From the IMG/VR virus record IMGVR_UViG_3300025818_000197, positions 1 through 23,517 of that record: a stretch of 23,517 nt of DNA, one strand, 5' to 3'. The notes beneath the pieces are model-generated. The model was given only the letters and a program-made list of their open reading frames with translations. It did no database searches and had not been told where the DNA came from. Shown here piece by piece: positions 10,272 to 23,517 of the stretch. Position numbers and translations under genes: made by a program. The stretch is from a virus. Positions within the stretch are counted from its first letter, which is position 1; each line of letters begins with the position of its first letter.

Positions 10272-10274
10272 GCC

Positions 10275-10988: not shown

Positions 10989-11662
10989 ACTTGTTCTTCT
11001 TCTCTTCGTAGCCACAACAGCTTACCGTTTTCTATTACTCTTTCTTCATCACCACCGTAGGCTCTGACACACTCTTCATACAAGTCTTGTTCTGTCTTAC
11101 AGTCAGCTAGTATCTTATCAGCTTTCTTAGGTCCAACGCCATAGATACCTTGGATGTTGTCTGCCGAATCACCTGTAAGTATCTGCTTGTAGAAAAACCT
11201 CAACCCTTCAAACTCTTCAACTGTTTGCCAAGTACGTCTGTGTGGATTGTAGTGTGTGCATGGTAGCTGAAGCATGTCCTTGTCTATTGATACGACAATG
11301 CTCTCAGGGTTAGACCAGATGCCTATCAGGTCATCAGCCTCTTCATCCTTGGACACAATAGCTTTCCAGTTGTCGATCAGGTGCTGCCTAATATCACCAA
11401 GGTGTACAGGTCTTTCTTGTTTCCTGTTGCCTTTGTATTCTCTGGTAACAGCAATGTTCTTTCTGAAGTTACCTTTACCTGTCAGGAAGATCTGATACTT
11501 GTCATCAGTTACCTCCCACAGTACTGCCTCTAGTGCAGTCTCTAGTAACTCATCAATCTTTTCTACTGCTGCTTGTACTTCTTCATCTGCACAAGAGAAA
11601 GCTGCACGATAAGCAAACGGATCACCGTCAACCAGTATTTGCAAGTTGTCGTTCTTTTGCAC
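10949..11662 (-). CDS. 5'-3' exonuclease, FEN family (T7 gp6-like)
   Basis: This 237-residue protein shows the FEN/PIN layout: ILVDGDPFAYR with the first metal ligand, an arch region containing REYKGNRKQERP, EEADDLIG with clustered acids, VVSIDKDMLQL, and the helix-hairpin-helix segment GIYGVGPKKADKIL after TGDSADNI. In T7-like phages this enzyme removes RNA primers and supplies nucleotides from degraded host DNA. The GTG at 11662 is chosen because AAGGA lies 8 nt upstream. The gene overlaps its upstream neighbour by 35 nt and endonuclease I by 40 nt. Confidence 0.92.
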   Translation of the reverse strand: MQKNDNLQILVDGDPFAYRAAFSCADEEVQAAVEKIDELLETALEAVLWEVTDDKYQIFLTGKGNFRKNIAVTREYKGNRKQERPVHLGDIRQHLIDNWKAIVSKDEEADDLIGIWSNPESIVVSIDKDMLQLPCTHYNPHRRTWQTVEEFEGLRFFYKQILTGDSADNIQGIYGVGPKKADKILADCKTEQDLYEECVRAYGGDEERVIENGKLLWLRREEEQVWQPPKFTDSDQD

Positions 11663-11873
11663 GTTGACGTTCCTTCTGTGTCATTGGTCTAAGTATATCG
11701 TCACTGTAGTCAACGATGATACCTGTGTTCCACTTACTGCGTTCTTCTTCTGCTGCTTCGTAAGTATTAAACAACTTTGGTTTGTACCCTTCTGTGGTAT
11801 TACAAGGCCACTCTTCAGGCACGTAGTTGTAATCCTCATCAGTATCAAACATAATCATTACTGCGTATTTCAT
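11628..11873 (-). CDS. Small protein of unknown function (81 aa)
   Basis: The frame can be extended upstream to 12065, but that extension runs through the terminator and into the SSB-like gene. The ATG at 11873 (MKYAVMIMFDTDEDYNYVPE) has AAGGAT upstream and is the likely start. The 81-residue product has a beta-type N-terminus, a central KLFNTYEAAEEERSKWN and a charged C-terminal helix (TQKERQRAKERQL). I recognise it only as a type of small protein frequent in marine phages. It is coupled to the exonuclease by a 35-nt overlap. Confidence 0.65.
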   Translation of the reverse strand: MKYAVMIMFDTDEDYNYVPEEWPCNTTEGYKPKLFNTYEAAEEERSKWNTGIIVDYSDDILRPMTQKERQRAKERQLANTG

Positions 11874-11884
11874 ATATATAATCC

Positions 11885-11965
11885 TTAGTGCAAGTATTGA
11901 ACTACTTGGGCTGCTAATAAAAAGAAAATTATCATAGCTACCCATACTAGTGCTAACTCTTTCAT
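11885..11965 (-). CDS. Possible 26-aa membrane peptide
   Basis: The ATG at 11965 opens a 26-codon frame (MKELALVWVAMIIFFLLAAQ, then VVQYLH) that is one hydrophobic helix, ending 11 nt before the next start. There is no convincing ribosome site, because the terminator T-tract lies directly upstream. Single-span mini-proteins are common in phages, but this could be chance in AT-rich sequence. Confidence 0.25.
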   Translation of the reverse strand: MKELALVWVAMIIFFLLAAQVVQYLH

Positions 11966-11994
11966 GGGAGAAAAAGGACAGGGCCGAAGCCCTG
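11966..11994 (-). terminator. Leftward intrinsic terminator with UUCG tetraloop after the SSB-like gene
   Basis: Reading leftward, the stem CAGGGC pairs with GCCCTG around TTCG (11979-11994), closing as the very stable C(UUCG)G tetraloop, followed by TCCTTTTTCT. It ends the transcript of the SSB-like gene 30 nt after its stop codon. Confidence 0.85.
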
Positions 11995-12024
11995 CCAGTT
12001 ACAACGAAAGGAGTACATGGGTTG

Positions 12025-12513
12025 TTACCAACGATCCTCTGCAGCCATCTCTTCAAATGGTACATGTTCGAGGATGCCCACTTTCTCTAACCTTACTGAG
12101 GCGGTAGAACCCTCACCGTAGATAGAGATTTTAACCTTGGCCTTAGTGCCGTTACCAAGAGCACCGTCTTCAATGTAATCCCAAGGTTTATTGGTAGTGC
12201 CGTGGGTAACGGATGGCGCACCACCAAAGTCTTCAATACCAGAAGGGTGTTTGTTAGGACGTTTGAGTTTCATACCTGCACGATTGTCTGCTGCAGTAAT
12301 TGGTTTGATCATACGGTTGCCCATTGATTCTTCAGGGAAACCTAAATCAACCATCTTCTGTAGCTCATCATCATCCTTGGGTACGAACACAGTATTGAAC
12401 TGTCCTTCTGTACGTTCATGGTATTCTGAGTCATCTATGTTGTCCTCGAAGATACGTGCATAATATAAGTCACCTTCGAATACACCATACTGAGTTTTCT
12501 TTTTAGCTGCCAT
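12025..12513 (-). CDS. Probable single-stranded DNA-binding protein (T7 gp2.5-like role)
   Basis: This 162-residue protein begins MAAKKKTQYGVFEGDLYYAR and has a beta-rich, charged body (GQFNTVFVPKDDDELQKMV; KAKVKISIYGEGSTASVRLE). Its acidic C-terminus, PFEEMAAEDRW, ends in an aromatic residue. Phage SSBs such as T7 gp2.5 use an acidic tail with a terminal aromatic residue to contact polymerase and helicase. The position between exonuclease and polymerase matches that role, as does a private strong promoter (12546-12574) and strong terminator, since SSBs are needed in large amounts. I see no diagnostic motif, so the call is from composition, tail and context. Confidence 0.7.
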   Translation of the reverse strand: MAAKKKTQYGVFEGDLYYARIFEDNIDDSEYHERTEGQFNTVFVPKDDDELQKMVDLGFPEESMGNRMIKPITAADNRAGMKLKRPNKHPSGIEDFGGAPSVTHGTTNKPWDYIEDGALGNGTKAKVKISIYGEGSTASVRLEKVGILEHVPFEEMAAEDRW

Positions 12514-12545
12514 TATCTAGCTCCTCTTTACTGATTCGTTTCATC

Positions 12546-12574
12546 AACATATACGTAATTAATTCCAATGTCAA
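12546..12574 (-). promoter_or_regulatory. Leftward sigma70-like promoter for the SSB-like gene
   Basis: TTGACA (plus coordinates 12569-12574), a 17-nt spacer and TATGTT (12546-12551), about 35 nt before the SSB-like start codon in a 96-nt intergenic gap. GAGGAG ribosome-site sequence follows downstream. Confidence 0.65.
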
Positions 12575-12609
12575 GCAAAAAATTACAGGGGATAGTGCAA
12601 ATATCCAAA

Positions 12610-13626
12610 TCAATGTGTGTCTCTCCAATTATACCCTATGTCAGTTGAACCTGCGAGTGGGCAGACCATACCAAACTTTATACCAGTGTCAACAATAGAT
12701 TGCCTTTGTATCTTACCTAGTAGTTCAGCATCTTTCATCTGCCCACGCACTTCTGTTTGCCACTCATCATGAGGCCACGTAACAAGCTTAAACTCAAGGA
12801 ACTGTCTCTTAGCTTTGTAGACCCAATCAAGTGCTGCATGTTTCATTATGGTTGACTCACCATTCTGAAGCATACCTGCTAGTGTCTTGTGTTCTGAAGG
12901 TACTATAACCCTACGTCCATCAAGACCTCTGAACCACCCACGTTTAGCTATGTGTGGTATTACCTTTTTCTTTAACTCAGCAAGTCCTTGAATTGATTGC
13001 ATAAAGTTTTCAACTGCTTGCTTTGCTTCTTTCTGACTGACGTTTAGTATCTGTGCTACCTTGGCATTACCTGCACCTAGTAGGAACGCATAGATGAAAG
13101 TCTTAGCCATATCTCTAGTGACATGTGACATACCCAGAGCCTTACGGTTCAGGTTATGTATGTCTGTCTCATCTTCCTTCTTGCCTGACACGATAGCGTG
13201 TACGTATTCCTCTGACTTCATCAGGTGTGCGAGTACACGTAACTGGATACCCTCAGCATCTGTGCCTACCAAGTAGCAGCCCTTGGGTACACACCATAGC
13301 TCACGTAGTTGACCATCGTATCTGTCCTTCACCTTCTCTACAGCAGTGACAGCATCACCATGAAACTGTGCAGGGATGTTAGCTTGGTTAGGGTTCCTGT
13401 GTGCCATCCTGCCTGTCCATGCACCAACGTGTGTAAAGCTGCCGTGAATACGTGAATCGTCACCACAATGCCCCAGCCACTCCACTAGTGAGGATCGCCT
13501 ACCTTCAAGTGTCAACCACTCTGCTAGACGTTTGCCTCCTGCAGGTGCTGTCTCAGGCAGTGTGTTAAGGTTTGCCTCAGATAAAGTCCATCCGAACTTA
13601 GCAAACTTCTGTCCTCGTTCATCCAT
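12610..13626 (-). CDS. DNA polymerase A, polymerase domain (split gene, C-terminal part)
   Basis: This is the polymerase half of a T7 gp5-type enzyme, about 338 residues. Numbering from the longer frame start at 13638: RIHGSFTHVGAWTGRMAH at 63-80; motif A GTDAEGIQLRVLAHLM with catalytic Asp127; motif B RDMAKTFIYAFLLGAG at 175-190 with the dNTP-contacting Arg/Lys and Tyr183; motif C WPHDEWQTEV with Asp291 and Glu292. The ATG at 13626 is chosen because GAGG lies 6 nt upstream, inside the end of the endonuclease gene, so this part can be translated on its own. Leu187 replaces the conserved motif B Tyr (Tyr530 in T7). The exonuclease half is encoded separately at 13971-14864, in a different frame. 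Confidence 0.9.
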   Translation of the reverse strand: MDERGQKFAKFGWTLSEANLNTLPETAPAGGKRLAEWLTLEGRRSSLVEWLGHCGDDSRIHGSFTHVGAWTGRMAHRNPNQANIPAQFHGDAVTAVEKVKDRYDGQLRELWCVPKGCYLVGTDAEGIQLRVLAHLMKSEEYVHAIVSGKKEDETDIHNLNRKALGMSHVTRDMAKTFIYAFLLGAGNAKVAQILNVSQKEAKQAVENFMQSIQGLAELKKKVIPHIAKRGWFRGLDGRRVIVPSEHKTLAGMLQNGESTIMKHAALDWVYKAKRQFLEFKLVTWPHDEWQTEVRGQMKDAELLGKIQRQSIVDTGIKFGMVCPLAGSTDIGYNWRDTH

Positions 13627-14002
13627 TTTGTTCCTCATGTTTTTCTAAATACCTAAGTGCTCTAGTCACACCTTCAATATCATCACCTAACTTTCCTATA
13701 CCAGTGTTGCAAAAATGACACAGAAAGCCTCTGTACTTACCTGTCTTGTGGTCATGATCAAAGTGTAAGCTTTTAATTTTTCTTCCACAACAATGACATA
13801 AACCTGTATCTAAGTGTTCGTATTTCTTTCTTTCTTTTCTTCTCCACTCTCTCCCCTCATTACAACAAGCCATACATCTAGAATCTCTTGTTGTATTTGT
13901 TGGAGATTTGTGCCTTTTATGAAATCTATCTATAGGTTTTTCTACACTACATATCCTACAAACTCTTGTTTCAACGAAAAGTTCTAGCTGATTCTCTTTC
14001 AT
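13619..14002 (-). CDS. HNH endonuclease of the endonuclease VII type, inserted in the DNA polymerase gene
   Basis: Starting at the ATG at 14002 (MKENQLELFVETRVCRICSV), the 127-residue protein has paired Cys knuckles (CRIC, CMACC, CHCC, CHFC) and the catalytic signature LHFDHDHKTGKYRGFLCHFC followed by NTGIGKLGDDIEGV, the hallmark of the recombination endonuclease VII family (T4 gp49 fold). Relatives of this type often act as free-standing homing endonucleases. It sits exactly between the exonuclease and polymerase halves of the polymerase, overlapping the upstream part by 32 nt and the downstream part by 8 nt, and in a different frame from both. Many Arg/Lys residues (REWRRKERKKYEH) may contact DNA. 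Confidence 0.9.
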   Translation of the reverse strand: MKENQLELFVETRVCRICSVEKPIDRFHKRHKSPTNTTRDSRCMACCNEGREWRRKERKKYEHLDTGLCHCCGRKIKSLHFDHDHKTGKYRGFLCHFCNTGIGKLGDDIEGVTRALRYLEKHEEQNG

Positions 14003-14864
14003 AATCAATATGGCCTTTCGTTTTCTCAAATGGTTTCCATCCTGCTTCCCATAGTCTTTCTATCCGCATCTTTGGTGAGGCAGGGTTGAACTCTATGAAG
14101 TCGTAGCACACTAGCTCAGGGTCTTGCTTTGACCAGTCTACTTGTGTCTTTGCGTGTTTCTTTTGTGCGTTGGTCACGTTACTGTACAGTGTACCGTCAG
14201 CTTTCTTTCTGTACTTGATACGATTGACTTCCTCTAGCTTGGGTGGGAAGTCCTCTTGGAAAGCATCTTCAAGGTGTGCTTTGCGTTGTTCTATCTCATC
14301 AAGTAACTCTTCAGCCTTAGCCTTGTTGAAGTAGAAGCCGTTGTCTGTCATGGTCTGACACAGTATTTGTATGTCATGCTCACATTTTATAGCCCACTCC
14401 CAATCAGGATCATGTATTACTTTCTTGAACTTATCGTACACTCTTAATGTAACTGTAACGTCCTGATGACAGTACTTGATCATCTCATCCGACAGCATCG
14501 AGAAGTCGGAGAAGTCCATCTTGAAGTTACCTAGCCTTATACCCCAAGCCTTGAGGCCATGCCCATGCTTGATGTCGAAGTCAACCAGTCTACTGACAAT
14601 CAGTGTGTCAAGGACTGACTCCAAAGGTATCAAGTCTTTCTTTACAAGGCGATTAATAATAGGAACATCAAAACAGATTCCATTGTGAAATATAAACCTA
14701 TCGTATCTGCTACAGTACTCAATGAATCTCTCCTTCTCTTCCTGTATTGTTGTTAGGTGAACGAAGTGTTCCTTTTCACCTGTCTCTACATCCTCTGCAC
14801 AGATACACCAAATCTTTTCTGGTGTAAGTGATTCTGTTTCTATGTCCATAGCTACACTACGCAT
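13971..14864 (-). CDS. DNA polymerase A, 3'-5' exonuclease domain (split gene, N-terminal part)
   Basis: This part carries the proofreading exonuclease of a T7 gp5-type polymerase. Exo I is AMDIETESL with the Asp/Glu pair, Exo II is FHNGICFDVPII, and Exo III is YCHQDVTVT with the Tyr and Asp in place. The linker to the polymerase domain follows (NPASPKMRIERLWEAGWKPF), and the frame stops shortly after GHIDYERES. The frame opens at 14888, but AGGAG at 14874-14878 best serves the ATG at 14864 (9-nt spacing); the ATG at 14870 is the alternative. The last residues (about RESARTFR) are probably not native, because the coding sequence already overlaps the inserted endonuclease gene there. Confidence 0.9.
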   Translation of the reverse strand: MRSVAMDIETESLTPEKIWCICAEDVETGEKEHFVHLTTIQEEKERFIEYCSRYDRFIFHNGICFDVPIINRLVKKDLIPLESVLDTLIVSRLVDFDIKHGHGLKAWGIRLGNFKMDFSDFSMLSDEMIKYCHQDVTVTLRVYDKFKKVIHDPDWEWAIKCEHDIQILCQTMTDNGFYFNKAKAEELLDEIEQRKAHLEDAFQEDFPPKLEEVNRIKYRKKADGTLYSNVTNAQKKHAKTQVDWSKQDPELVCYDFIEFNPASPKMRIERLWEAGWKPFEKTKGHIDYERESARTFR

Positions 14865-15069
14865 GGTCATCTTCTCCTGTAAACTCATACCATAATAGAA
14901 CTAGCGTATTGAATATCCAGAAGATACTGCTAGTGATAGCTCTTCTTTGGCTCATCTCATGTTGTCTTTCCATGAAATAGAATATAGTCCTGACATGTAC
15001 GTAGTGTAAGAATATGCCAAGAAAATAAATTACTGCTGCAAAGGCAGCGTATGGGTCAATATACTGCAT
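14857..15069 (-). CDS. Small two-span membrane protein
   Basis: This 70-residue protein has two hydrophobic helices (AAFAAVIYFLGIFLHYVHV and ITSSIFWIFNTLVLLWYEF) separated by a charged loop (MERQHEMSQRRA), with an acidic C-terminus (TGEDDHA). It overlaps the helicase end by 14 nt and the polymerase start by 8 nt, so it is likely co-translated. No family is recognised. A membrane location for a gene between helicase and polymerase is unusual. Confidence 0.5.
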   Translation of the reverse strand: MQYIDPYAAFAAVIYFLGIFLHYVHVRTIFYFMERQHEMSQRRAITSSIFWIFNTLVLLWYEFTGEDDHA

Positions 15070-16669
15070 ACTTTTCTTTCAATGTAAAGGAGTCAGGGTC
15101 AAACTGTAGTTGCCCTGCGTATCCTGTTGGACCTACTGGTCTGTTCTTGGTTACTAATAGTTTGGTTGTGTTCCTCTCTTCTCTGTCCTCTGACATCTTG
15201 TCACGCTGTAGATCAACTACAACTGAGGCACGTTGCTCAATCATACGACAGTACTTTACCTGACCGTCATCGTTAGTGTGACCAATTGTCACAATACCTA
15301 CACCCAACTCTGCTGCAAGCTTGGATAACCTGACTGACAGGTCAGCTAGGAACTGCTCCTTGCTATCCTCTGTACCTGCGTTGGCAGATATATCTTGGAT
15401 AGGTTCGAAGAATACGTAGTTGACATCACATGCTTGAGACAGATACCTGATCTGTGACAATAAGTCAAGTGGATCATCCTCATCATTGAGGAAGAACTGG
15501 TATAGCCTCTCGTCTTTGGTCAGCTTGGTGATAGCTTCTTGTACTAGATCGTCAGCGTTCTTGTCTTCGATCAAGTCCTTGCGTGTCAGGTTGTCGTTCA
15601 ACTCATAGGATACCAAGCCAAGGATAGACCGTAGCTTAGTCTCTTCCATGTGCCACGTAGCTATCTTGATGTCAGGGTATTGACTGAGTATCCTGTACTC
15701 AAGGTAACGCATGAACTCTGTCTTGCCTATACCTGTCTGTGCTTTGAACAGTGTGAAGTGCCCTTGCATCAGGCCAAGACACATCTCATCGAACTCCTGC
15801 ACACCTGTCTCCACATACACATGGTTCTCTGACTTGTTGTACAAGCCAAGGAATTGATCAGGTGTATTCAGTATGTTAGCAGGTGTATACTTTCTAGCAT
15901 TGAACCATGCAGACTTGAATGTCTTGGCATGACCCTCTTGCAAGAACTCATTGGCGTCCTTGTACTTGTCAAGCTCCATGCGATAGACCTTGTTAGGGTA
16001 CAGGCTTGCAATCTTTGCAGCTACTGAGTTACCTTGGTCATCGTGTTCGATAGACAATACTATCTTGTCAAATGAACTCAGGAACTTGTTTATCTTTTCC
16101 CATAGCTTGTGCGATGGTGTCGATGATGGCAATGACACAACAGGGTTGTCGAACTTAGGGTTGTGTAGCATCTGGTATGCTGACATAGCATCTAGCTCAC
16201 CCTCTGTGATAGTAATGATCTTGCTTGTGCCACTGTTCCATAGGTTCATACCAAACAACTCATCAGTCTTTAGATTCCTAGCACTGAATGTCTTTGGTAG
16301 TTGTCTGACCTTCACACCACCCGAAGGGTAGATGTACTCTTGGCGTACTGGTTCACCCTTGCCATCTATGAAAGTCTTACAGTCGTAGAACTCCATAGTT
16401 TCTTTGGTGATGCCACGGTATGCCATGTGCATAGGCTTGACAAACTCCGTGACATTTGATTGTTCTTGTTGTTGCATATCCCAAGATTCCTTGCTGCTTT
16501 GATATGTTGGATACTCTTCTTCTGCCCAATTGTCAAGGTCTCTCATTTGTTTTGGGTAAGACCTGTTGCAAGAATGACACTTACCTGCCATAGTTTCTGT
16601 GTTGTATGAGAACGCATCACTGCTATCGCAGTCAGCAGCAGGACATTCTTTGTGGCTTATCCAAGTCAT
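15056..16669 (-). CDS. Primase/helicase (T7 gp4-like, TOPRIM plus RecA-type helicase)
   Basis: This 537-residue protein has an N-terminal Cys4 zinc motif (Cys9, Cys14, Cys31, Cys34), then a TOPRIM primase core with TITEGELDAMSAYQML (Glu156) and LSIEHDDQG (Asp210/211). The C-terminal hexameric helicase domain has Walker A QTGIGKTEF at about 311-319, KIATWHMEET, a hydrophobic strand ending FFEPIQDI in the Walker B position, and GIVTIGHTNDD followed by RASVVVDLQRD. It would unwind the fork and may prime lagging-strand synthesis with the split polymerase next door. The order zinc, TOPRIM, helicase equals T7 gp4. Confidence 0.92.
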   Translation of the reverse strand: MTWISHKECPAADCDSSDAFSYNTETMAGKCHSCNRSYPKQMRDLDNWAEEEYPTYQSSKESWDMQQQEQSNVTEFVKPMHMAYRGITKETMEFYDCKTFIDGKGEPVRQEYIYPSGGVKVRQLPKTFSARNLKTDELFGMNLWNSGTSKIITITEGELDAMSAYQMLHNPKFDNPVVSLPSSTPSHKLWEKINKFLSSFDKIVLSIEHDDQGNSVAAKIASLYPNKVYRMELDKYKDANEFLQEGHAKTFKSAWFNARKYTPANILNTPDQFLGLYNKSENHVYVETGVQEFDEMCLGLMQGHFTLFKAQTGIGKTEFMRYLEYRILSQYPDIKIATWHMEETKLRSILGLVSYELNDNLTRKDLIEDKNADDLVQEAITKLTKDERLYQFFLNDEDDPLDLLSQIRYLSQACDVNYVFFEPIQDISANAGTEDSKEQFLADLSVRLSKLAAELGVGIVTIGHTNDDGQVKYCRMIEQRASVVVDLQRDKMSEDREERNTTKLLVTKNRPVGPTGYAGQLQFDPDSFTLKEKYAVY

Positions 16670-16899
16670 TAATTATCTTCTCCAGTATTCTCAAACTGAT
16701 GGTGAAGACCCCAATAAGCTGAGTCTAGTTTACCTAACTGAGGTACAGATATCTCATAGCTTTGGTGCATAGTACTTACAGCGTCTTTTATGACCTCTAT
16801 TGCTTCTTTTATAGCTTCTAGTTGACCATCAGTTAGTTGGCTCATACCATTTCTTTTGTCCTCTTGTTTTTTTCTGTACTGTATTTCCCATTCTTCCAT
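16669..16899 (-). CDS. Small protein of unknown function (76 aa)
   Basis: The frame extends to 16920, but the ATG at 16899 (MEEWEIQYRKKQEDKRNG) has AGAGGAG 7 nt upstream and follows the previous stop directly, so it is the likely start. The 76 residues are mostly helical, including LTDGQLEAIKEAIEVIKDAV and YWGLHHQFENTG. No motif is recognised. Its stop overlaps the helicase start by one base, so it is co-translated with the primase/helicase. Confidence 0.55.
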   Translation of the reverse strand: MEEWEIQYRKKQEDKRNGMSQLTDGQLEAIKEAIEVIKDAVSTMHQSYEISVPQLGKLDSAYWGLHHQFENTGEDN

Positions 16900-16900
16900 A

Positions 16901-17107
16901 TCAATACTCCTCTGTTGCAAGAACTGGTTCTTCTGCTAGGCCACAGAAACATTCCTTCTCCTTCAACTCAGCAATCCTTTTGTATGCTGCTTGTAGTTGT
17001 GCTTGTAGCTCTAACACATTTCGTTCTATCAAATCTATTTTATCTGACATTTCTAAGATTATCTTACGATTCTTCTCAGCTTCCATCTCATCAGGTAGCA
17101 CCATCAT
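16901..17107 (-). CDS. Small coiled-coil protein
   Basis: This 68-residue protein contains a long heptad-like helix (KIILEMSDKIDLIERNVLEL, then QAQLQAAYKRIAELKEKE) and ends with a Cys pair (CFCGLAEEP). AGGAGG abuts the tandem start codons at 17107 and 17104, so either may be used. The coiled coil suggests self-association. Function unknown. It precedes the 76-residue gene with a 1-nt gap. Confidence 0.55.
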   Translation of the reverse strand: MMVLPDEMEAEKNRKIILEMSDKIDLIERNVLELQAQLQAAYKRIAELKEKECFCGLAEEPVLATEEY

Positions 17108-17228
17108 CCTCCTCTAGTATAAACCTAAAGTAATAGTTGTGTTCATCCTCTATGTCTTCAAGTACCCAATCAACTGGCTTGTCCTTGACTACTTCTCTCA
17201 ACATAGCTATCAGGTCTTCCTTTGTCAA
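17091..17228 (-). CDS. Possible small acidic protein (45 aa, TTG start)
   Basis: A TTG at 17228 with AGAGGAG 7 nt upstream opens a 45-codon frame (MTKEDLIAMLREVVKDKPVD, then WVLEDIEDEHNYYFRF and an acidic end), which stops at 17091-17093. An ATG at 17204 gives a 37-residue form. It overlaps the end of the next upstream gene by 59 nt, long for this operon, so one of the two may not be real. The residue pattern looks like a genuine small helical protein. Confidence 0.4.
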   Translation of the reverse strand: MTKEDLIAMLREVVKDKPVDWVLEDIEDEHNYYFRFILEEDDGAT

Positions 17229-17373
17229 CCTTCCACTCCTCTACTTCTGTTACATAATAATCCTCACCAAGCTGATCAACGATCTGTCCTACACTGTACG
17301 CCTTGATGTATAGGGTCTTGTATACACTGCTCCTTAGATCAGTCTTGAGTTGCACTTGATAGTTCTTCATCAT
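17170..17373 (-). CDS. Small protein of unknown function (67 aa)
   Basis: This protein begins MMKNYQVQLKTDLRSSVYKT and contains LYIKAYSVGQIVDQLGEDYY, an alternating beta pattern followed by a helix, as in small phage proteins with a beta-alpha fold. The C-terminal end (GRPDSYVERSSQGQAS) is overlapped by another candidate frame and is low in structure. The start overlaps the stop of the upstream gene (CAATGATG). Unknown family. Confidence 0.5.
   Translation of the reverse strand: MMKNYQVQLKTDLRSSVYKTLYIKAYSVGQIVDQLGEDYYVTEVEEWKVDKGRPDSYVERSSQGQAS
17200..17228 (-). promoter_or_regulatory. Weak candidate leftward promoter
   Basis: TTGACA (17223-17228), a 17-nt spacer and TATGTT (17200-17205) read leftward, the same boxes and spacing as the promoter before the SSB-like gene. 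It lies in overlapping coding sequence, so it may be fortuitous. Confidence 0.3.
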
Positions 17374-17543
17374 TGTCTTGTGTCCACTTCTAGACAGGCA
17401 AGCATCTCTGAACTGGTACTGACTAGCACTACAGCTTCCTTGAGTGCTGCCTGACAGTCTGTTTCTTTAGTGAACGTGCCTAGTTGATAGTGTTCTACAC
17501 CTTGGCTAGTCACTAGCTGCATCCATATTAATATCCACATCAT
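17370..17543 (-). CDS. Small Cys-containing protein with hydrophobic N-terminus (57 aa)
   Basis: The ATG at 17543 is preceded by AGAGGA. The frame encodes 57 residues starting MMWILIWMQLVTSQGVEHYQ, then LGTFTKETDCQAALKEA and a late Cys in EMLACLEV. The hydrophobic start plus two Cys residues suggests an exported or membrane-tethered disulfide peptide. The layout parallels the 61-residue protein at 7409-7594 (hydrophobic start, short Gly-containing strand, Phe-x-Cys helix, final Cys). The stop overlaps the next start. Confidence 0.55.
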   Translation of the reverse strand: MMWILIWMQLVTSQGVEHYQLGTFTKETDCQAALKEAVVLVSTSSEMLACLEVDTRQ

Positions 17544-17555
17544 TTGTTTTTCCTC

Positions 17556-17583
17556 TTGACAAATCAGAAAATGTTGGTATACT
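17556..17583 (+). promoter_or_regulatory. Rightward sigma70-like promoter opposing the leftward operon
   Basis: TTGACA (17556-17561), a 16-nt spacer and TATACT (17578-17583), with TGG before the -10 box (extended -10). It lies in a 66-nt intergenic gap and faces against the surrounding genes. The predicted transcript would start near 17590, at a small hairpin. Confidence 0.5.
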
Positions 17584-17587
17584 AGGG

Positions 17588-17602
17588 CTGTCCTTTGGAC
17601 AG
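17588..17602. repeat. Short perfect inverted repeat at the predicted start of the antisense transcript
   Basis: CTGTCC-TTT-GGACAG, a 6-bp stem with 3-nt loop. No T-run follows in either direction, so it is not an ordinary terminator. It may be an operator or a 5' RNA hairpin. Confidence 0.4.
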
Positions 17603-17609
17603 GGTACTA

Positions 17610-17798
17610 TTAGAAATTAGGATACCAAAGCTCACCTTCATCCATGTCTCTTTTTATTTGTTCCTTCTCAGGTAAGTATAACTCTACTACGTCATCCTCA
17701 CCCATCCATTCAGCATCATCAATGATTCTTGATATATCATTGTAGTACTGTTCTATGGGTACAACCTTAGCTGTACCCTGAGTTTGTTTGTTGTTCAT
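17610..17798 (-). CDS. Small acidic protein of unknown function (62 aa)
   Basis: This protein begins MNNKQTQGTAKVVPIEQYYN and continues with DISRIIDDAEWMGEDDVVEL and a charged tail ending ELWYPNF. AAGGA lies 6 nt before the ATG. It is acidic and probably helical, with an aromatic C-terminus. No known motif. It is one of a run of small early-type genes and may be a host-modifying protein. Confidence 0.5.
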   Translation of the reverse strand: MNNKQTQGTAKVVPIEQYYNDISRIIDDAEWMGEDDVVELYLPEKEQIKRDMDEGELWYPNF

Positions 17799-17801
17799 TA
17801 A

Positions 17802-18167
17802 TTATCCTTTTTGTTTTCTGACGTTAGTGTCAGATAGAATAGCTTTTAATAAATTCATATTAAAAAGTATACCTTCAGCTTTATCTATATTGGAAGCTAT
17901 AATGTATTGTGCATGCTCTGGGTCTTTTGCAACAATACTTCCAAACTTCTCTTGTTTACCTTGAGCATTACAATACTTTCGGTTGATAGCATTAGTCCAA
18001 TGTATCTGCTTTCTTGTATTATAATTTCTTTGATTCTTTATAGTCCTACGTCCTGTCTTTAAAACAGTGACACCAGTCTTATAAGTTTTACCATTAGGGT
18101 ATAGTTCATCACAAATATTTTCTGCTGCTGCTAAAAATTCTGCTGCTTCTTTAAAGTTAGTACTCAT
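17802..18167 (-). CDS. Hypothetical basic protein (121 aa)
   Basis: This protein begins MSTNFKEAAEFLAAAENICD, then has a basic central region (TVLKTGRRTIKNQRNYNTRK) and a C-terminal helix (NIDKAEGILFNMNLLKAIL). AAGGA lies 9 nt upstream of the ATG. The Arg/Lys/Asn-rich middle could bind nucleic acid, but there is no recognisable domain. The gene is 3 nt from its downstream neighbour in the early-type leftward cluster. Confidence 0.5.
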   Translation of the reverse strand: MSTNFKEAAEFLAAAENICDELYPNGKTYKTGVTVLKTGRRTIKNQRNYNTRKQIHWTNAINRKYCNAQGKQEKFGSIVAKDPEHAQYIIASNIDKAEGILFNMNLLKAILSDTNVRKQKG

Positions 18168-18186
18168 TTCATTTATTCCTTTATAT

Positions 18187-18807
18187 TTAGTTTACAATTT
18201 TAAGTCTCTCCTTAGAGAAACGGTTAAGATCAGGGGTTGAATAATCTAGTAGTTGTTTTAAAGTTAACAACCCTCTGATATAACTACTTGCGTTATAAGG
18301 GTCTTTGGTTGCAACGTCAAGTAGTATTCTTGATGCCTCTTCAATTTCAAGAGTACATTCATTCTTAAATCTCTCAGCCAACATCATTATAGCTGTAAGG
18401 GATTGATCAGTCTTATATATGATAGGCTTCTTTTCTAATACTTTTTCCTTGAACTCCTTGACATCTTTGACAGATGGGTTGGGGTTCTGCTCAAGGAACT
18501 CATGAGCTTTTTCCTCAGGTAAAGATGGTGCTGATAGTTCGTAGAGTACCGTGATTGGTAACTGGTGTGACATAAATGTCCCACCGAACCTAGTGCCAAC
18601 TTGCATAATACGTGATCTCATTTTTCGGTTAAGATCAGGAAACTCTTTAGCACACCAATCGTGAAAAGCATTATCACTAGGGTGCATATCACGCCCACAT
18701 TGTAGAGCTTGACCTGCTCTAATGATATGCTCAACTGATTTGGTTAGGTTTGAACGTACATCATCAGCTATTTGATCAAGCTCTTGTTGTTGTAAATTAT
18801 CAGACAT
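18187..18807 (-). CDS. DUF3102-like helical protein (206 aa), possible DNA-binding regulator
   Basis: The N-terminal half (SNLTKSVEHIIRAGQALQCG, then DNAFHDWCAKEFPDLNRKMR and MQVGTRFGGTFM) follows the layout I associate with DUF3102-type domains: a helix carrying GxxL, a short FxxW segment, then a helix resembling a recognition helix. The middle (PITVLYELSAPSLPEEKAHEFLE) resembles the helical part that follows in ParB-like or KorB-like proteins. The C-terminal 70 residues are unassigned. AGGA precedes the ATG. A DNA-binding regulatory role is inferred from the pattern and not secure. Confidence 0.5.
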   Translation of the reverse strand: MSDNLQQQELDQIADDVRSNLTKSVEHIIRAGQALQCGRDMHPSDNAFHDWCAKEFPDLNRKMRSRIMQVGTRFGGTFMSHQLPITVLYELSAPSLPEEKAHEFLEQNPNPSVKDVKEFKEKVLEKKPIIYKTDQSLTAIMMLAERFKNECTLEIEEASRILLDVATKDPYNASSYIRGLLTLKQLLDYSTPDLNRFSKERLKIVN

Positions 18808-18810
18808 TAT

Positions 18811-19035
18811 CTATCCTGCAAAATGTTGTAGCTTTCTTGAGCTAGTGCGGTTAGGTTTTCTCTCAATGTAAACTGATCGTTTACCTAAGTGATAGCCTGT
18901 CATGCACTGGCCTTTTGTAATACCTAAACGGTTAACAGTTGATCGCTTTCTTGTCAACCCCTTGATACCAATAAAATTAAATCTAAATCCTTGGGTGTTA
19001 TCGTTTAGTGGTTTAGTTGCGAATAGTACAAACAT
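18811..19035 (-). CDS. Small basic protein of unknown function (74 aa)
   Basis: This protein begins MFVLFATKPLNDNTQGFRFN and continues with FIGIKGLTRKRSTVNRLGIT and a strongly basic end (GKRSVYIERKPNRTSSRK). AAGGAG lies 6 nt before the ATG and is formed by the last codons of the small upstream gene, so translation is coupled. The charge suggests nucleic-acid contact; no family is recognised. Confidence 0.55.
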   Translation of the reverse strand: MFVLFATKPLNDNTQGFRFNFIGIKGLTRKRSTVNRLGITKGQCMTGYHLGKRSVYIERKPNRTSSRKLQHFAG

Positions 19036-19038
19036 TGT

Positions 19039-19170
19039 TTACTCCTTTTCTGTTTGTAGTTTGATTAATAATTTTTGGCAAACTTTTTTGTTTCTTGACA
19101 TGATTACAATCTTTCCTTGTTTATCATAGACAATGTATTTGCCTGATTTAGTTTCTTTCATAATAGTCAT
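19039..19170 (-). CDS. Very small basic protein (43 aa)
   Basis: The ATG at 19170 opens 43 codons: MTIMKETKSGKYIVYDKQGK, then IVIMSRNKKVCQKLLIKLQ and a charged end. The pattern of two short strands and a helix looks like a real mini-protein. Its final codons (AAG GAG TAA) provide the ribosome site of the next gene. The start at the second Met (19161) is also possible. Confidence 0.5.
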   Translation of the reverse strand: MTIMKETKSGKYIVYDKQGKIVIMSRNKKVCQKLLIKLQTEKE

Positions 19171-19182
19171 CTGTTGTCAACC

Positions 19183-19773
19183 TTAAATATTATTTTCTCT
19201 TTTCCATGTAGTCCAAGTGATAGCTTGCAGTACATGTGGCTTGATGTCAACACGCTTTGCAGCCCTGACATATACCTCTTGCATTTGTCTATAGACTTTC
19301 TTTGACATGTTTGTCTTGTCTGTAGTCAGACCTTGCCTGACACCCAGCGCAATGTTCAAGGCATGTCCGTCTATAGTCACCTCATCTAGTCCACGTATGT
19401 TAGAATAGAATGATCTAATCTTTTGCCCATTGAGCCTGTCAAGTATCTCATCATCACTAGTCAAGTTGTCCTCTAGTATTGACCATGCCTTGAGCTTCAT
19501 AGTGTTGTAGCATGACACCTTGAAGTCATCCAAGTCATCACCTTTGACCCATGCCCAGCACATACGCTCACAGTCAGCAATGTTGCGTTCCCATTTGTTG
19601 TTGGGTGACAGTGCAGCCATCACACCAATCACAGTGTTAAGCTTGACACCTGACAGCCCTGATATGATTGAGCAATATGTCTTGGCTTCATCATACCATT
19701 TGTAGCCGTTTGCAATGTCCTCAGTGCTTGCCCTACGGTAAACCTTGAGTATGTTTCTAACGTGTTGTGTCAT
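19183..19773 (-). CDS. Uncharacterised phage protein with HhH-GPD DNA glycosylase-like motifs
   Basis: This 196-residue protein belongs to a type I recognise from several phage groups as uncharacterised. The segment VIGVMAALSPNNKWERNIAD resembles the helix and LSxQxT loop of endonuclease III-type glycosylases. Further on, LNGQKIRSFYSNIRGLDEVT then IDGHALNIALG aligns with their helix-hairpin-helix and catalytic Asp region. Lys118 and Asp135 are 17 residues apart, against 18 for the Lys/Asp pair of E. coli endonuclease III. This suggests base-excision or base-specific DNA recognition but is a motif-level inference. There is no Cys4 iron-sulfur cluster. The start overlaps the preceding stop as ATGA. 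Confidence 0.5.
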   Translation of the reverse strand: MTQHVRNILKVYRRASTEDIANGYKWYDEAKTYCSIISGLSGVKLNTVIGVMAALSPNNKWERNIADCERMCWAWVKGDDLDDFKVSCYNTMKLKAWSILEDNLTSDDEILDRLNGQKIRSFYSNIRGLDEVTIDGHALNIALGVRQGLTTDKTNMSKKVYRQMQEVYVRAAKRVDIKPHVLQAITWTTWKRENNI

Positions 19774-19997
19774 TCATCCATACCTTCCAATGCTAGTTTT
19801 ATAGATCGTTTATTGAATACTGCTCCGTCAGGTGTTTTCTTACCTTCCCAAATTTTGGTCAGTAAGTTGATAACTCTTTCTGTTTCTTTACTCTGCATTA
19901 AAGTATAAGCAGTCATGTATAATTCGTAGTCGTTGTTTATCCAAAGTGAAACGTTCCAACTGTTCCAACTTGGGTATCCGTTGTATGGTTTAGCCAT
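19770..19997 (-). CDS. Small YNGYxSWNxWNVSLWI-type protein (DUF7249-like), function unknown
   Basis: I take the ATG at 19997 (MAKPYNGYPSWNSWNVSLWI) because GGAGG lies 6 nt upstream; an ATG at 20003 sits directly on the ribosome site. The N-terminal motif, with its aromatic residues followed by NNDYELY, is the hallmark of a small protein family widespread in phages; the DUF7249 label is from memory. The C-terminal part (INLLTKIWEGKKTPDGA) is helical. It overlaps the glycosylase-like gene by 4 nt. No activity is known to me. Confidence 0.7.
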   Translation of the reverse strand: MAKPYNGYPSWNSWNVSLWINNDYELYMTAYTLMQSKETERVINLLTKIWEGKKTPDGAVFNKRSIKLALEGMDE

Positions 19998-20178
19998 TAG
20001 CATCCTCCAATTCTTTTACGTGTTTGATCATCTCACTTACTGATTTAAAACAGTACTTGATGTCATTCAATTCGTCAAACACTTGTTGTAATAATTTTGT
20101 TGCTTGCTCATCTCTTTGAGCACCTAGTAGCACGAACACATGTTCAAGCTTTCGTGATATTCTCTCACCATTATTCAT
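19990..20178 (-). CDS. Small helical protein of unknown function (62 aa)
   Basis: This protein begins MNNGERISRKLEHVFVLLGA and continues with DEQATKLLQQVFDELNDIKY and a helical end. AAGGAG lies 8 nt before the ATG. It is all-helical by pattern. It follows directly after a strong leader hairpin (20206-20270) and starts a tight series of small genes, so the hairpin may control it. Confidence 0.5.
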   Translation of the reverse strand: MNNGERISRKLEHVFVLLGAQRDEQATKLLQQVFDELNDIKYCFKSVSEMIKHVKELEDANG

Positions 20179-20205
20179 AGTTAGTACTCCTTATCTTTTC
20201 AGTAA

Positions 20206-20270
20206 GACACACAAGCAACCCATATGTCAAGCATAAGTTTAGGTTGGCCTAAATTAGTTGCTTATGTGTC
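20206..20270 (-). repeat. Long inverted repeat (leader hairpin) upstream of the 62-aa gene
   Basis: Arms 20206-20219 (GACACACAAGCAAC) and 20257-20270 (GTTGCTTATGTGTC) are 14 nt each and complementary except at one position. In the leftward RNA that position is a U-G wobble, while in the rightward RNA it is an A-C mismatch, so folding favours the leftward transcript. Inside is a second perfect stem TTTAGG/CCTAAA at 20238-20253. The structure ends 28 nt before the next start codon. Confidence 0.6.
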
Positions 20271-20723
20271 CAAGAAAAAGACACTCTCTCCTAATGACGG
20301 ACTGATTCAAGTCACCGTTCTATAAAGTGGGCTTTCACACTTCTACTGCTGTAATCCTGCGTCACTTCCATCAGACAGCTTTACTAGTTCCTTAGTCTAG
20401 TTCATTTGGTCAGCTTGTGAACATCCATTCACTAGGGCTTTTTTTTTAGTCTTTCAGTTTTAGTTTTGTTAGTCAAGTCTTTTATTTTAGTGTGCGGTGC
20501 TTTGAATGTTCCCACCAATAAGTGCACCGCAACTCATCGGTCAAGTAGCCTAGATTTCTAGTCAACTGCTAGGCCAGCTATTTAGTGTAGGACTGGATTA
20601 CACCTACGGAGCTTGGATCAATCAATGCTCTGGGTCAAGGCCAAAAGGCTCACCGTCTGCTAGTTGACTTTCCGTCATGGCTATACCTCAGCATAGCCAA
20701 AAGAGATAGTCAAGAGTTTTTTT
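20271..20723. other. 450-nt stretch with no ordinary gene, rich in inverted repeats (possible ncRNA)
   Basis: No frame longer than about 30 codons is convincing. The stretch contains a perfect 8-bp stem TGCGGTGC/GCACCGCA (20493-20500 and 20524-20531). A second 8-bp pair, AGTCAACT/AGTTGACT (20560-20567 and 20662-20669), encloses several small stems: GTAGG/CCTAC, GAGC/GCTC and GGCC-AAAA-GGCT. A further stem GGCTAT/ATAGCC lies at 20679-20698. Two runs of nine T on the plus strand, at 20439-20447 and 20717-20725, could end rightward RNAs. Base composition is less AT-rich than the control region to its right. Short leftward peptides with a ribosome site exist (for example one of 18 codons starting near 20677) but I cannot support them as genes. 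Confidence 0.45.
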
Positions 20724-20912
20724 TTACGCTCCCTCAGGCAACATTTCTTTATTGCCTATGTACTTAAAGTTTTGGTCTGGATCATATTCAAAGCAAAACC
20801 ATTTTTGACTTATGACAGCACTAATGAGTTTTTCACCAACTCCTAGTCTTTCCATATCGTCCACCATTTTGTGGACTTCACGTATATGTTCTTTGTCTTC
20901 TTCTGTAAGCAT
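20724..20912 (-). CDS. Small protein of unknown function (62 aa), first leftward gene
   Basis: This protein begins MLTEEDKEHIREVHKMVDDM and continues with SAVISQKWFCFEYDPDQNFK and GNKEMLPEGA. A Glu/Asp-rich N-terminal helix is followed by an aromatic, probably beta, C-terminal half. AAAGGA precedes the ATG. It is the first leftward gene after the control region and therefore probably expressed early. The gene's stop codon lies within a run of nine T on the plus strand. No family is recognised. Confidence 0.55.
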   Translation of the reverse strand: MLTEEDKEHIREVHKMVDDMERLGVGEKLISAVISQKWFCFEYDPDQNFKYIGNKEMLPEGA

Positions 20913-21114
20913 TTATTTTTCCTTTTCGTTGTTGTTGAAACCATTAAGCATTAAACCACAACATAACGCAATAGTTATTTTCAATTATTTTATAAGTTAT
21001 TGTTTTTAAACGAATACTTTTTTATTGTTTCATGTTTTGTTCGTTAGTGTTCCATTTGGTTAGTGATTCGTTTATGTTTTGTTCTAACATTTCTTTTAAT
21101 TGGATATATGAACC

Positions 21115-21155
21115 TGCGCGTGTATGCGCGTGTGCGTAACGTGCGCGTGTGCGTA
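21115..21155. repeat. GC-rich alternating purine-pyrimidine repeat
   Basis: TGCGCGTGTA (21115-21124) is followed by two copies of TGCGCGTGTGCGTA (21125-21138 and 21142-21155). Nearly all positions alternate purine and pyrimidine, in strong contrast to the AT-rich surroundings. It could favour Z-DNA or be a protein-binding direct repeat. Confidence 0.7.
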
Positions 21156-21249
21156 GGGGAAAACGTCAGATATTTTGTAAGATATATGACACAAAGGATA
21201 ACACATTACATTGTCAATAAAATCAGTGGGTTAGCTTTGGTGAAGCGTT

Positions 21250-21259
21250 TGTGATCACA
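21250..21259. promoter_or_regulatory. Palindromic site 1 of 3 (TGTGATCACA)
   Basis: Perfect 10-bp palindrome. It shares 14 nt (TTTGTGATCACATT) with site 2. It lies in non-coding DNA of the control region. Confidence 0.6.
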
Positions 21260-21301
21260 TTTCCCATAGGAAACACTTTAGTCTCACTAAGGTTTTACAT
21301 T

Positions 21302-21311
21302 TGTGATCACA
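21302..21311. promoter_or_regulatory. Palindromic site 2 of 3 (TGTGATCACA)
   Basis: Perfect 10-bp palindrome, 52 bp from site 1 (about five helical turns) and 33 bp from site 3 (about three turns). Confidence 0.6.
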
Positions 21312-21334
21312 TTACAGGCCTAGGGGTAAACTTT

Positions 21335-21344
21335 TGTGATCACA
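21335..21344. promoter_or_regulatory. Palindromic site 3 of 3 (TGTGATCACA)
   Basis: Perfect palindrome, extended here to 12 bp (TTGTGATCACAA). It is the copy closest to the leftward terminator and promoter. Confidence 0.6.
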
Positions 21345-21427
21345 AGAGGTAGGCACAAGGGGGTTGCGTGCATCCGCATATATGTACAATGTGACAAAAA
21401 ATTATCTCACTAAAATTTCACTAATGC

Positions 21428-21465
21428 AAAAAAATAGGCCCACCCAGTATGTACCTGAGTGAGCC
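21428..21465 (-). terminator. Leftward intrinsic terminator within the control region
   Basis: In the leftward RNA an 11-bp stem forms between 21465-21455 and 21447-21437, with two G-U wobbles and a 7-nt loop, followed by TA and seven T. On the plus strand the wobbles become C-A mismatches and no T-run follows, so it is directional. It lies about 100-135 nt downstream of the perfect leftward promoter. Confidence 0.8.
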
Positions 21466-21485
21466 AAAGGAGAAAACGAAAGTGT

Positions 21486-21562
21486 CCTTAGGGTATACTA
21501 TAGACAAATAACTAATTATGATTATTCATACTTATACTTATACTATAGCCCATCCCTAAGGG
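21486..21562. repeat. Inverted repeat CCTTAGGG ... CCCTAAGG with internal direct repeat
   Basis: CCTTAGGG at 21486-21493 and CCCTAAGG at 21554-21561 are perfect complements. Just inside each arm lies a copy of TATACTATAG on the plus strand. Together they frame the short leftward transcript. Confidence 0.55.
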
Positions 21563-21569
21563 ATAATTC

Positions 21570-21598
21570 ATTATACCACTGTTTTACACATCTGTCAA
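21570..21598 (-). promoter_or_regulatory. Perfect-consensus leftward sigma70 promoter
   Basis: TTGACA (21593-21598), a 17-nt spacer and TATAAT (21570-21575), all twelve positions consensus, plus TGG before the -10 box (extended -10). It is expected to be read very strongly by host RNA polymerase immediately after DNA entry. Confidence 0.9.
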
Positions 21599-21647
21599 CA
21601 ATAAAATGTAAAAAATTATATTTTTTTGAAAAATGTTGTAAAAGTGC

Positions 21648-21676
21648 TTGACAAACAAAACGAATCATGCTACTAT
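21648..21676 (+). promoter_or_regulatory. Rightward sigma70 promoter for the small terminase gene
   Basis: TTGACA (21648-21653), a 17-nt spacer and TACTAT (21671-21676), with TGC before the -10 box. An A/T-rich tract lies just upstream (21608-21633), like an UP element. The transcript would start near 21683, about 30 nt before the ATG at 21713. Confidence 0.75.
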
Positions 21677-21712
21677 TCAAATCAGTTGTATGAAAAAGAG
21701 GATTTATACTAT

Positions 21713-22243
21713 ATGCCATTATTTACAATGAGCCAACTAAAAGGTCCGAATGGCAAGTGTAGAACTAAAAGTTTATTCTATGAGTTGTCATACTATGACA
21801 CCACTGATGTTATCTTCACAACAAAAGAACATGACATAACAGTCAAAGATAAACTTTACGTGTCCTTACAACAGTTATTCATAAAGATGGTTCCAAATGA
21901 CCCGACTGAGTATGAGTTTGCTCAGGCGGTTTTTGGTTCTTGGAACGTGTGGAAAGGTATATCCGAAGCTCCACAAATAAAACCTTTTGTCAACCACTGG
22001 CGTAACGAAGTAGTTGTCAAAGTTAAATCACAAGCGATTCAAGCTATAGCTGAAGAGATGAAGTCTAACGGAAGAAGCTCGTTCTCTGCAGCTAAACTTC
22101 TATTGGATAAAGGTTGGTTAGATAACGATACAGCCTCACAAGCTAAAAAGAAGTTACAGGCTAAAGAACAAGAAGAACAAGATAAACAAGCATTGTCACT
22201 ATTACAGAACGATGCACAACGATTAGGATTGAAGGTTAACTAA
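21713..22243 (+). CDS. Probable terminase small subunit
   Basis: The frame is open from 21626, but that stretch contains the promoter. The ATG at 21713 (MPLFTMSQLKGPNGKCRTKS) has AGAGGA upstream and is the likely start, giving 176 residues. The centre (EFAQAVFGSWNVWKGISEAP, then VNHWRNEVVVKVKSQAIQAI and SSFSAAKLLLDKGWLD) fits the layout of small terminases of marine podoviruses: a W-rich helix, a WRxE helix and an AAKxLxxxGW segment. A coiled, charged C-terminus follows (KKKLQAKEQEEQDKQ). Small terminase recognises the packaging site and recruits the large subunit; the palindrome array upstream could be its target. The large subunit is not in the window. Confidence 0.6.
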   Translation: MPLFTMSQLKGPNGKCRTKSLFYELSYYDTTDVIFTTKEHDITVKDKLYVSLQQLFIKMVPNDPTEYEFAQAVFGSWNVWKGISEAPQIKPFVNHWRNEVVVKVKSQAIQAIAEEMKSNGRSSFSAAKLLLDKGWLDNDTASQAKKKLQAKEQEEQDKQALSLLQNDAQRLGLKVN

Positions 22244-22245
22244 GC

Positions 22246-22776
22246 ATGGCTAAGAAACCAACAGTAACTACAATCACTTCAGGTTTTGCCTCAGTTACAA
22301 CACTGAACGCTAACTACGAAGCATTGAGAGATGCTTTCGATAATACTATATCAAGAGACGGCAGCACACCCAACACGATGACTGCTGACTTTGACATGAA
22401 CAGTAACGACATTCTTAATGTCAAAAGTATTACAGATGCTACAGGTGCAGACATTGTAGCAGGAGCTAAGGCAAATGCTGACGCTGCAGCAGCAGCACTA
22501 GATGAGTTTACAGATTTATACTTAGGTGCAAAAACTGCAGACCCAACTGTTGATAATGATGGAGATGCACTACAAACAGGTGCGATCTATTACAATTCAG
22601 TAGATAAAATATTTAAAGTTTATAACGGTTCAAGTTTTGTTGTAGCTATAAATGTATCAACTCCTGTTTCTGTTTCAAACGGAGGTACAGGAGCAATCAA
22701 TGCTGCAGACGCTAGGCTAAACTTGAACGCAGAAGAAGCTGGTACTTCACTAGCTTTAGCAATCGCATTAGGCTAG
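22246..22776 (+). CDS. Short tail-fibre or appendage protein
   Basis: This 176-residue protein has a fibre-type N-terminus (TITSGFASVTTLNANYEALR, then TADFDMNSNDILNVKSI). A mid segment (FTDLYLGAKTADPTVDNDGD, then LQTGAIYYNSVDKIFKVYNG) recurs in phage fibre and appendage proteins of marine phages. The motif VSNGGTGAINAADARLNL near the end is typical of tail fibres just before the variable tip. It is much shorter than a full fibre and stops right after that motif, so it may be the adaptor part, with tip functions in the following genes. Confidence 0.75.
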   Translation: MAKKPTVTTITSGFASVTTLNANYEALRDAFDNTISRDGSTPNTMTADFDMNSNDILNVKSITDATGADIVAGAKANADAAAAALDEFTDLYLGAKTADPTVDNDGDALQTGAIYYNSVDKIFKVYNGSSFVVAINVSTPVSVSNGGTGAINAADARLNLNAEEAGTSLALAIALG

Positions 22777-22791
22777 TATAGGAGATTAAAA

Positions 22792-23241
22792 ATGGCTGAT
22801 AGCGCAGGTGTAACCCTTCAGGCAACAGTACTGCCTGATGAGATACAAAAAACTTTTTCGTCTACTATGACAGTAGCACCAGCAGACGGAAATGATAAAT
22901 GGTACTATAAACTAACAAGTGTAAGTAACGCTAGTACAGACCTTATGGCTGGTTACTTCACAGACTACACAGCAGTAGATGATGATACTGCTCCAACTGC
23001 TATTCATACTGCTGATAAAGTAAACTTTCTTTTTGTCAAAAACACTGACGCTGCTGAAAGCGTATACATTGTCTTAGACGGTGGTACAGCTTCTGCTAGT
23101 GAAGCTGATGGTATTACACTAGGGCCATCAGAAGGAATGGCTTTACGTTTACCAAACGCAACTGTTGGTAATATTCACGCTATCAGTTCTGCTGGTACAG
23201 TAACATGTATAGTATGCGCTTTACTTGACGATGTAGCGTAA
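22792..23241 (+). CDS. Probable virion surface protein (149 aa)
   Basis: AGGAG precedes the ATG. The sequence is beta-rich with low Lys/Arg content: LQATVLPDEIQKTFSSTMTV, then WYYKLTSVSNASTDLMAGYF and VNFLFVKNTDAAESVYIVLD. The pattern suggests a compact beta-sandwich like small decoration or fibre-tip proteins. It follows a short fibre protein and precedes another beta-rich protein, so it is probably part of a virion appendage module. No specific family is recognised. Confidence 0.55.
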   Translation: MADSAGVTLQATVLPDEIQKTFSSTMTVAPADGNDKWYYKLTSVSNASTDLMAGYFTDYTAVDDDTAPTAIHTADKVNFLFVKNTDAAESVYIVLDGGTASASEADGITLGPSEGMALRLPNATVGNIHAISSAGTVTCIVCALLDDVA

Positions 23242-23252
23242 GGTAGGTTCAA

Positions 23253-23517
23253 ATGCCTAACACATTTAAGAATTATACTAAATCGTCTGTAGGAACTACT
23301 GGTGATGTTGTATACTCAGTTCCATCAGGAACAACTTCTGTGATGATAGGGTGTAACGTATCAAACGTTGCATCCACACAGATCACTGCAGATGTCCTTA
23401 TGACTGGAATCCACATTGTTAAAAATGTTCCGATTCCTGCAGGATCAAGTATTTCTGTTTTAGATGGTAAGATAATTCTTGAAGCTGGAGATACTATAGT
23501 TGTAGAAAGCGATACAC
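23253..23517 (+). CDS. Probable virion protein, 3'-truncated by the window end
   Basis: AGG-type ribosome site before the ATG at 23253; 88 codons are visible and no stop is reached. The product (MPNTFKNYTKSSVGTTGDVV, then YSVPSGTTSVMIGCNVSNV and IPIPAGSSISVLDG-like sequence) is beta-rich with PSGTTSVMIG and PAGSS turns. I associate this pattern with small conserved structural proteins of marine podoviruses and myoviruses. Exact role unknown. Confidence 0.6.
   Translation, partial: MPNTFKNYTKSSVGTTGDVVYSVPSGTTSVMIGCNVSNVASTQITADVLMTGIHIVKNVPIPAGSSISVLDGKIILEAGDTIVVESDT

Follow-up and report, generated by a model that had tools for sequence, protein, structure and literature searches.

Phage T7 has a right-end promoter, phiOR, and a concatemer-junction pause, and the packaging RNA (pRNA) of phi29 is a short RNA whose promoter lies near the genome end. 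Phage-encoded small RNAs that act in trans include PreS of lambda and VpdS of VP882, as given in the available text of a review (PMC12197685). The locus described here occurs in a stretch of 23,517 nucleotides (the window), which DNA and protein matches to CRP-5 and ICBM2 place with the Cobavirinae of the Zobellviridae. It comprises a host-type promoter, a predicted non-coding RNA and an intrinsic terminator beside a predicted direct terminal repeat (DTR; Table 1), and we read it, with moderate confidence, as a small-RNA gene in its own right, located at the right-hand terminus of the linear DNA in Veravirus-like phages (Zobellviridae, Cobavirinae), with an RNA that would act in trans.

Table 1 Predicted features around the right genome end, in window coordinates.
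Feature	Position	Strand	Basis
Predicted DTR, 132 bp; left edge ATTGTACATA, right edge YATGGGAAAT	21259..21390	-	Homology to the mapped ICBM2 DTR
AT-rich element adjoining the DTR	21391..21428	-	Highest conservation in the region (0.977 identity in close relatives)
Predicted non-coding RNA, ~134 nt	21431..21564	-	Fold, close relatives, terminators
Intrinsic terminator hairpin; T tract to 21429	21437..21465	-	Terminator scan
C/U-rich linker ACACUUUCGUUUUCUCCUUU, single-stranded; candidate for pairing	21466..21485	-	Unpaired in fold; conserved in close relatives
3' arm of long-range stem, CCCTAAGG	21486..21493	-	Fold; retained, with G-U substitutions, in close relatives
5' hairpin UCCC-UUA-GGGA at the predicted RNA start	21553..21563	-	Pair types; set mean versus shuffles
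5' arm of long-range stem, CCTTAGGG; mutually exclusive with the 5' hairpin	21554..21561	-	Fold
Sigma-70 consensus promoter of the RNA (TTGACA-N17-TATAAT, TGG extended -10)	21570..21598	-	Motif scan; kept in relatives
Divergent promoter of the right (structural) arm, TTGACA-17-TACTAT	21648..21676	+	Promoter scan; counterpart in most relatives
First right-arm gene, phrog_8035	21713..22243	+	Small-terminase candidate by neighbourhood only

The promoter is the single exact match to TTGACA-N17-TATAAT in the window (0.00 expected; 0 of 100 shuffles), and the TGG ahead of its -10 makes it a TG-type extended -10 promoter, in agreement with the first-pass annotation, which had called it a perfect consensus. 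It is also the sole 12/12 site among 34 promoter-like sites of all strengths in positions 10000-23517, a total that shows no excess over shuffled sequences (34.1). The strong leftward intrinsic terminator described at the same time is likewise present, with an 11-bp stem containing seven G-C pairs and a 7-nt loop, followed by TATTTTTTT. The start of the RNA was placed approximately 7 nt past the -10 (~21564) and its end at the T tract (~21431). That no ordinary gene lies between promoter and terminator also holds: the one internal open reading frame (ORF) encodes 13 amino acids and is not kept in close relatives, and a leader peptide was rejected on this ground. As in a small-RNA gene, the unit's own promoter and its own terminator thus flank a short stretch without a conserved ORF.

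Regions upstream of the first right-arm gene were compared at 85 loci, which represent 84 distinct records including the window (L093 repeats the L050 contig). At 80 of these, a promoter scoring at least 10/12 has a spacer of exactly 17, and in 69 of the 80 the score is 12/12. The five loci scored as lacking the unit are L025, which ends 147 nt from the gene; L046, whose promoter contains Ns; L109, missed through the DTR search pattern, yet with a promoter of 11/12; and L061 and CRP-4, both with TTGACA-17-TACCCT (9/12, by reading). Terminators were counted in 57 of 65 distinct units, the other eight being cut or without the DTR motif. A hairpin of -10 kcal/mol or lower is present in all 57 full units versus 22 of 171 shuffles, one of -12 kcal/mol or lower in 56 versus 10, and one of -14 kcal/mol or lower in 55 versus 1; the -12 kcal/mol threshold is also reached in 28 of 28 representative full units. 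Narrower scans gave lower counts, since superseded, because one was strict on loops and mismatches (25/57) and the other took even lengths only (41/57), and the terminator and internal-motif entry for L142 is unreliable because there the DTR search pattern matched a spurious site within the RNA. Across the 57 distinct units, the RNA measures 111-262 nt (median 154) and the gap from terminator to DTR 34-113 nt (median 40); the RNA predicted for ICBM2, a phage of Lentibacter SH36, would be ~260 nt long. The conservation of promoter, spacing and terminator on which the first reading had been made to depend is therefore found. By reading, the unit is absent from four sequences of the sister genus Siovirus (SIO1, P12053L, ICBM1 and ICBM3), all of which nevertheless carry the DTR motif together with a promoter directed into the structural arm.

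Other clades share, a little way ahead of the terminator, a motif similar to AAGGACA-nn-UCCAGAUUC; the window clade has ACACUUUCGUUUUCUCC in that position. Copies of this internal motif lie past the terminator in L146 and likewise, by reading, in L142, a placement that argues against the motif acting at the RNA level alone. Its one match in a collection of genome contigs is in an unrelated Ruminococcaceae contig.

The window RNA is predicted to fold with a minimum free energy of -49.1 kcal/mol (z -5.74), a stability reached in 0 of 200 shuffles. Both the 8-nt long-range complement and the direct repeat CTATAGTATA (21548-21539 and 21503-21494) noted earlier were confirmed, and in the minimum-free-energy fold they make up a single long stem, followed by a single-stranded linker of 20 nt and the terminator. 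As an alternative, the first 8-nt arm can pair locally, giving a small hairpin at the inferred start of the RNA. Scored over 32 representatives taken without regard to its presence, this hairpin reaches 11.47 versus 7.98 (sd 0.71) in shuffles, with several representatives lacking it by the simple score (for example L034, L054, L056, L058, L133, L141 and L153). It is present in 27 of 36 distinct 5' ends, and among these 27, which were selected for having the hairpin, the loop-closing pair is variously C-G, G-C, A-U, U-A or U-G, with other positions also variable. That one and the same pair is found in several Watson-Crick and G-U forms points to an RNA rather than a DNA operator. The expectation that compensatory changes would mark a conserved RNA is thus upheld for the 5' hairpin and not for the 8-nt stem that had been singled out, where the changes in close relatives are one-sided. 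The long-range stem is clear only in the window clade, and the fold differs between clades. Identity among the seven close relatives is 0.91 in the promoter, 0.87 in the start region, 0.87 in the linker and 0.93 in the terminator, and falls to 0.66 in the apical part of the stem, which drifts with insertions and deletions.

The position of the unit in the genome follows from ICBM2, whose record annotates a 159-bp DTR that starts with ATTGTACATACAGCAGGCTACCCCC and ends with CATAGGGGAAAT; the ends of this phage were determined from PacBio reads, according to the available text of the cobavirus paper (PMC6775973). In the window, ATTGTACATATATGCGG is found from 21390 and TATGGGAAAT ending at 21259, and on the strength of these edge motifs the DTR is predicted to span 21390-21259. 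The genome terminus, which the first-pass annotation had overlooked, therefore falls between the unit and the leftward genes: the unit occupies the right end of the linear genome, is directed outward and ends approximately 40 nt before the predicted DTR, and the gene at 20912 and those leftward of it belong to the left end. The unit is joined to the left-arm genes only in a concatemer or circle. Two oppositely transcribed arms are described for cobavirus genomes (PMC6775973, available text). The high conservation of the spacer between terminator and DTR indicates that this stretch also contains a DNA-level site of the genome end, and the AT-rich element is likely a terminus-processing site. 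A palindrome, TTGTGATCACA(A/T), occurs inside the DTR at 21334-21345 and 21301-21312 and across its right edge at 21249-21260; with one mismatch allowed, the window has four matches versus 0.13 expected, and several relatives have a sequence of similar type, TGTGATCAC, after the right-edge motif. The palindrome may possibly be a binding site.

On the other side of the unit, the right-arm promoter is 50 bp from the RNA promoter. The phrog_8035 gene that follows it stands directly ahead of the terminase large subunit gene in GP100, CVT22, CW02 and KpnP_VR7901 (Zobellviridae), and its product may on this account be the small terminase subunit; in PS32B.1, the gene after the homologue is unnamed. 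Structure comparison gave a best Z of 4.9 in pdb_via and unnamed matches in the viral library. Between the DTR and the first left-arm gene (20912-21259), the window has no sigma-70-like promoter of at least 9/12, although both right-end promoters are near consensus; in six relatives (L049, L113, L126, L136, L148 and L153), a near-consensus promoter lies just ahead of this gene. More than 500 bases (20179-20723) are non-coding between the first two left-arm genes, and the left ends of ICBM2, CRP-4 and SIO1 have long non-coding stretches sharing TTCATCGGCAA.CAAACACCG. Elsewhere in the window, a gene at 13619-14029, labelled HNH-endonuclease-like from reading of its sequence, lies between the halves of a split DNA polymerase (12610-13638 and 13971-14888); in ICBM2 and CRP-5, the polymerase is also in two genes, without an intervening gene.

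Taken from the sequence comparisons, the conserved promoter, start-site hairpin and terminator, together with the lack of a conserved ORF and all beside the DTR, are the grounds for reading the unit as a small-RNA gene of an apparently new family of phage small RNAs, which probably act in trans. Host RNA polymerase would produce a stable RNA of ~110-260 nt from the near-perfect sigma-70 promoter, protected at its 5' end by the hairpin and at its 3' end by the terminator, and this RNA would act in trans, its linker most likely base-pairing with an mRNA of the host or of the phage. Rfam searches returned no match at gathering score in the window and none up to E 0.5 in five loci, and none to 6S RNA. 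Of the translation start regions of the phage, which were searched for pairing, a 13-nt complement to the linker in the DNA polymerase gene was dropped as a target because the site is changed in one relative (L010) while its linker is identical. The start regions of CRP-5 and ICBM2 revealed no common target, their genes not corresponding, and the best linker-target energies were reached by 13% and 2% of shuffles, respectively. Besides this lack of a conserved target, the small-RNA reading has against it that the window clade does not have the internal motif, that the long-range stem is clear in that clade only and changes there on one side only, and that Siovirus is without the unit.

The main rival, ranked next after a trans-acting small RNA, is a role in cis at the genome junction, in which transcription and its termination ~40 nt before the DTR would matter rather than the RNA. 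The unit might then serve to prime or open DNA in the right-end region, or to keep RNA polymerase waiting for the terminase at the concatemer junction, in the manner of the T7 right-end promoter and junction pause but with the polymerase of the host. This explanation would accommodate the terminator-DTR gap (34-113 nt, median 40), the terminator-DTR block being the most conserved (0.977) and the adjoining gene being a small-terminase candidate by neighbourhood; in addition, the available text of PMC6775973 reports no RNA polymerase for SIO1, and the DTRs that it describes for the group point to T7-like concatemers. However, conservation of the 5' hairpin and linker would be unnecessary for a cis role, a cis site could be kept for the terminase alone, and Siovirus phages with similar DTRs have, by reading, no unit; on balance, we consider it possible but unlikely. 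It is, in our judgement, distinctly improbable that a DTR phage lacking an RNA polymerase of its own employs the consensus host promoter, a dedicated RNA and termination ~40 nt before the DTR so that host transcription, or the RNA itself, is coupled to the recognition and cutting of the concatemer junction by a terminase with its small subunit encoded by the neighbouring gene. It is very unlikely that the unit is a by-product of the divergent promoter pair, with a terminator that silences useless outward transcription before the terminus: the right-arm promoter, with its counterpart in most relatives, does lie close by, but a useless promoter would not stay at 12/12 in 69 of 80 loci, nor would the 5' hairpin be kept.

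The first-pass annotation had offered two readings, a small RNA or an attenuated leader with read-through to the leftward early genes. The small RNA gains from the conserved promoter, spacing, 5' hairpin and terminator, whereas the leader suffers from the intervening DTR, which favours a stand-alone RNA over attenuation. In a leader, a factor would let polymerase read past the terminator and on over the DTR as far as the gene at 20912, which is on the same strand and, in the window, has no promoter of at least 9/12 between it and the DTR. On the infecting linear genome, however, the left arm is at the opposite end (ends mapped in ICBM2), so the early genes cannot depend on the unit; by homology with these ends, the DTR interrupts what would have to be a continuous transcription unit. 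Some relatives have a near-consensus promoter directly ahead of the left arm's first gene, and the minimum-free-energy fold shows no alternative pairing of the terminator stem. We rate the leader as less probable still than a by-product. A structural RNA of the packaging motor, like the pRNA of phi29, might be suggested by a strong promoter and a short RNA adjoining the genome end and a small-terminase candidate gene, but the absence of an Rfam match to any family, the difference in fold between clades and the lack of the unit in the sister genus Siovirus make it extremely improbable.

Literature searches for Zobellviridae with small RNA, and for Roseobacter phage transcriptomes with noncoding RNA, yielded no description of such a unit, and 'promoter', 'ncRNA' and 'small RNA' are absent from the main text of the cobavirus paper (PMC6775973). 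The cultured phages ICBM2 and CRP-5 contain the unit in their sequences, and their records leave it unannotated. A widely conserved, unannotated predicted RNA gene is thereby added to globally distributed marine phages of Roseobacter-group hosts, and the case illustrates how an overlooked terminal repeat can make an end-of-genome unit resemble a leader.

Compared with phi29 pRNA, the window RNA is likewise a short RNA from a promoter near the genome end, but has no sequence or structure match in Rfam. With T7 phiOR, the unit shares an outward promoter near the right end and transcription nearing the terminal repeat; it differs in having an intrinsic terminator and a host-type promoter, of sigma-70 consensus rather than for a phage single-subunit RNA polymerase, and SIO1 has no reported RNA polymerase in the available text (PMC6775973). 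The unit fits best with the phage-encoded small-RNA genes, and its family itself appears to be new. Like PreS and VpdS, its product is predicted to be a short non-coding phage RNA, here with a folded 5' portion, an unpaired linker and an intrinsic terminator; whereas those RNAs come, according to the available text on them, from temperate phages, this one would be transcribed from a consensus promoter beside the DTR of T7-supergroup podoviruses.
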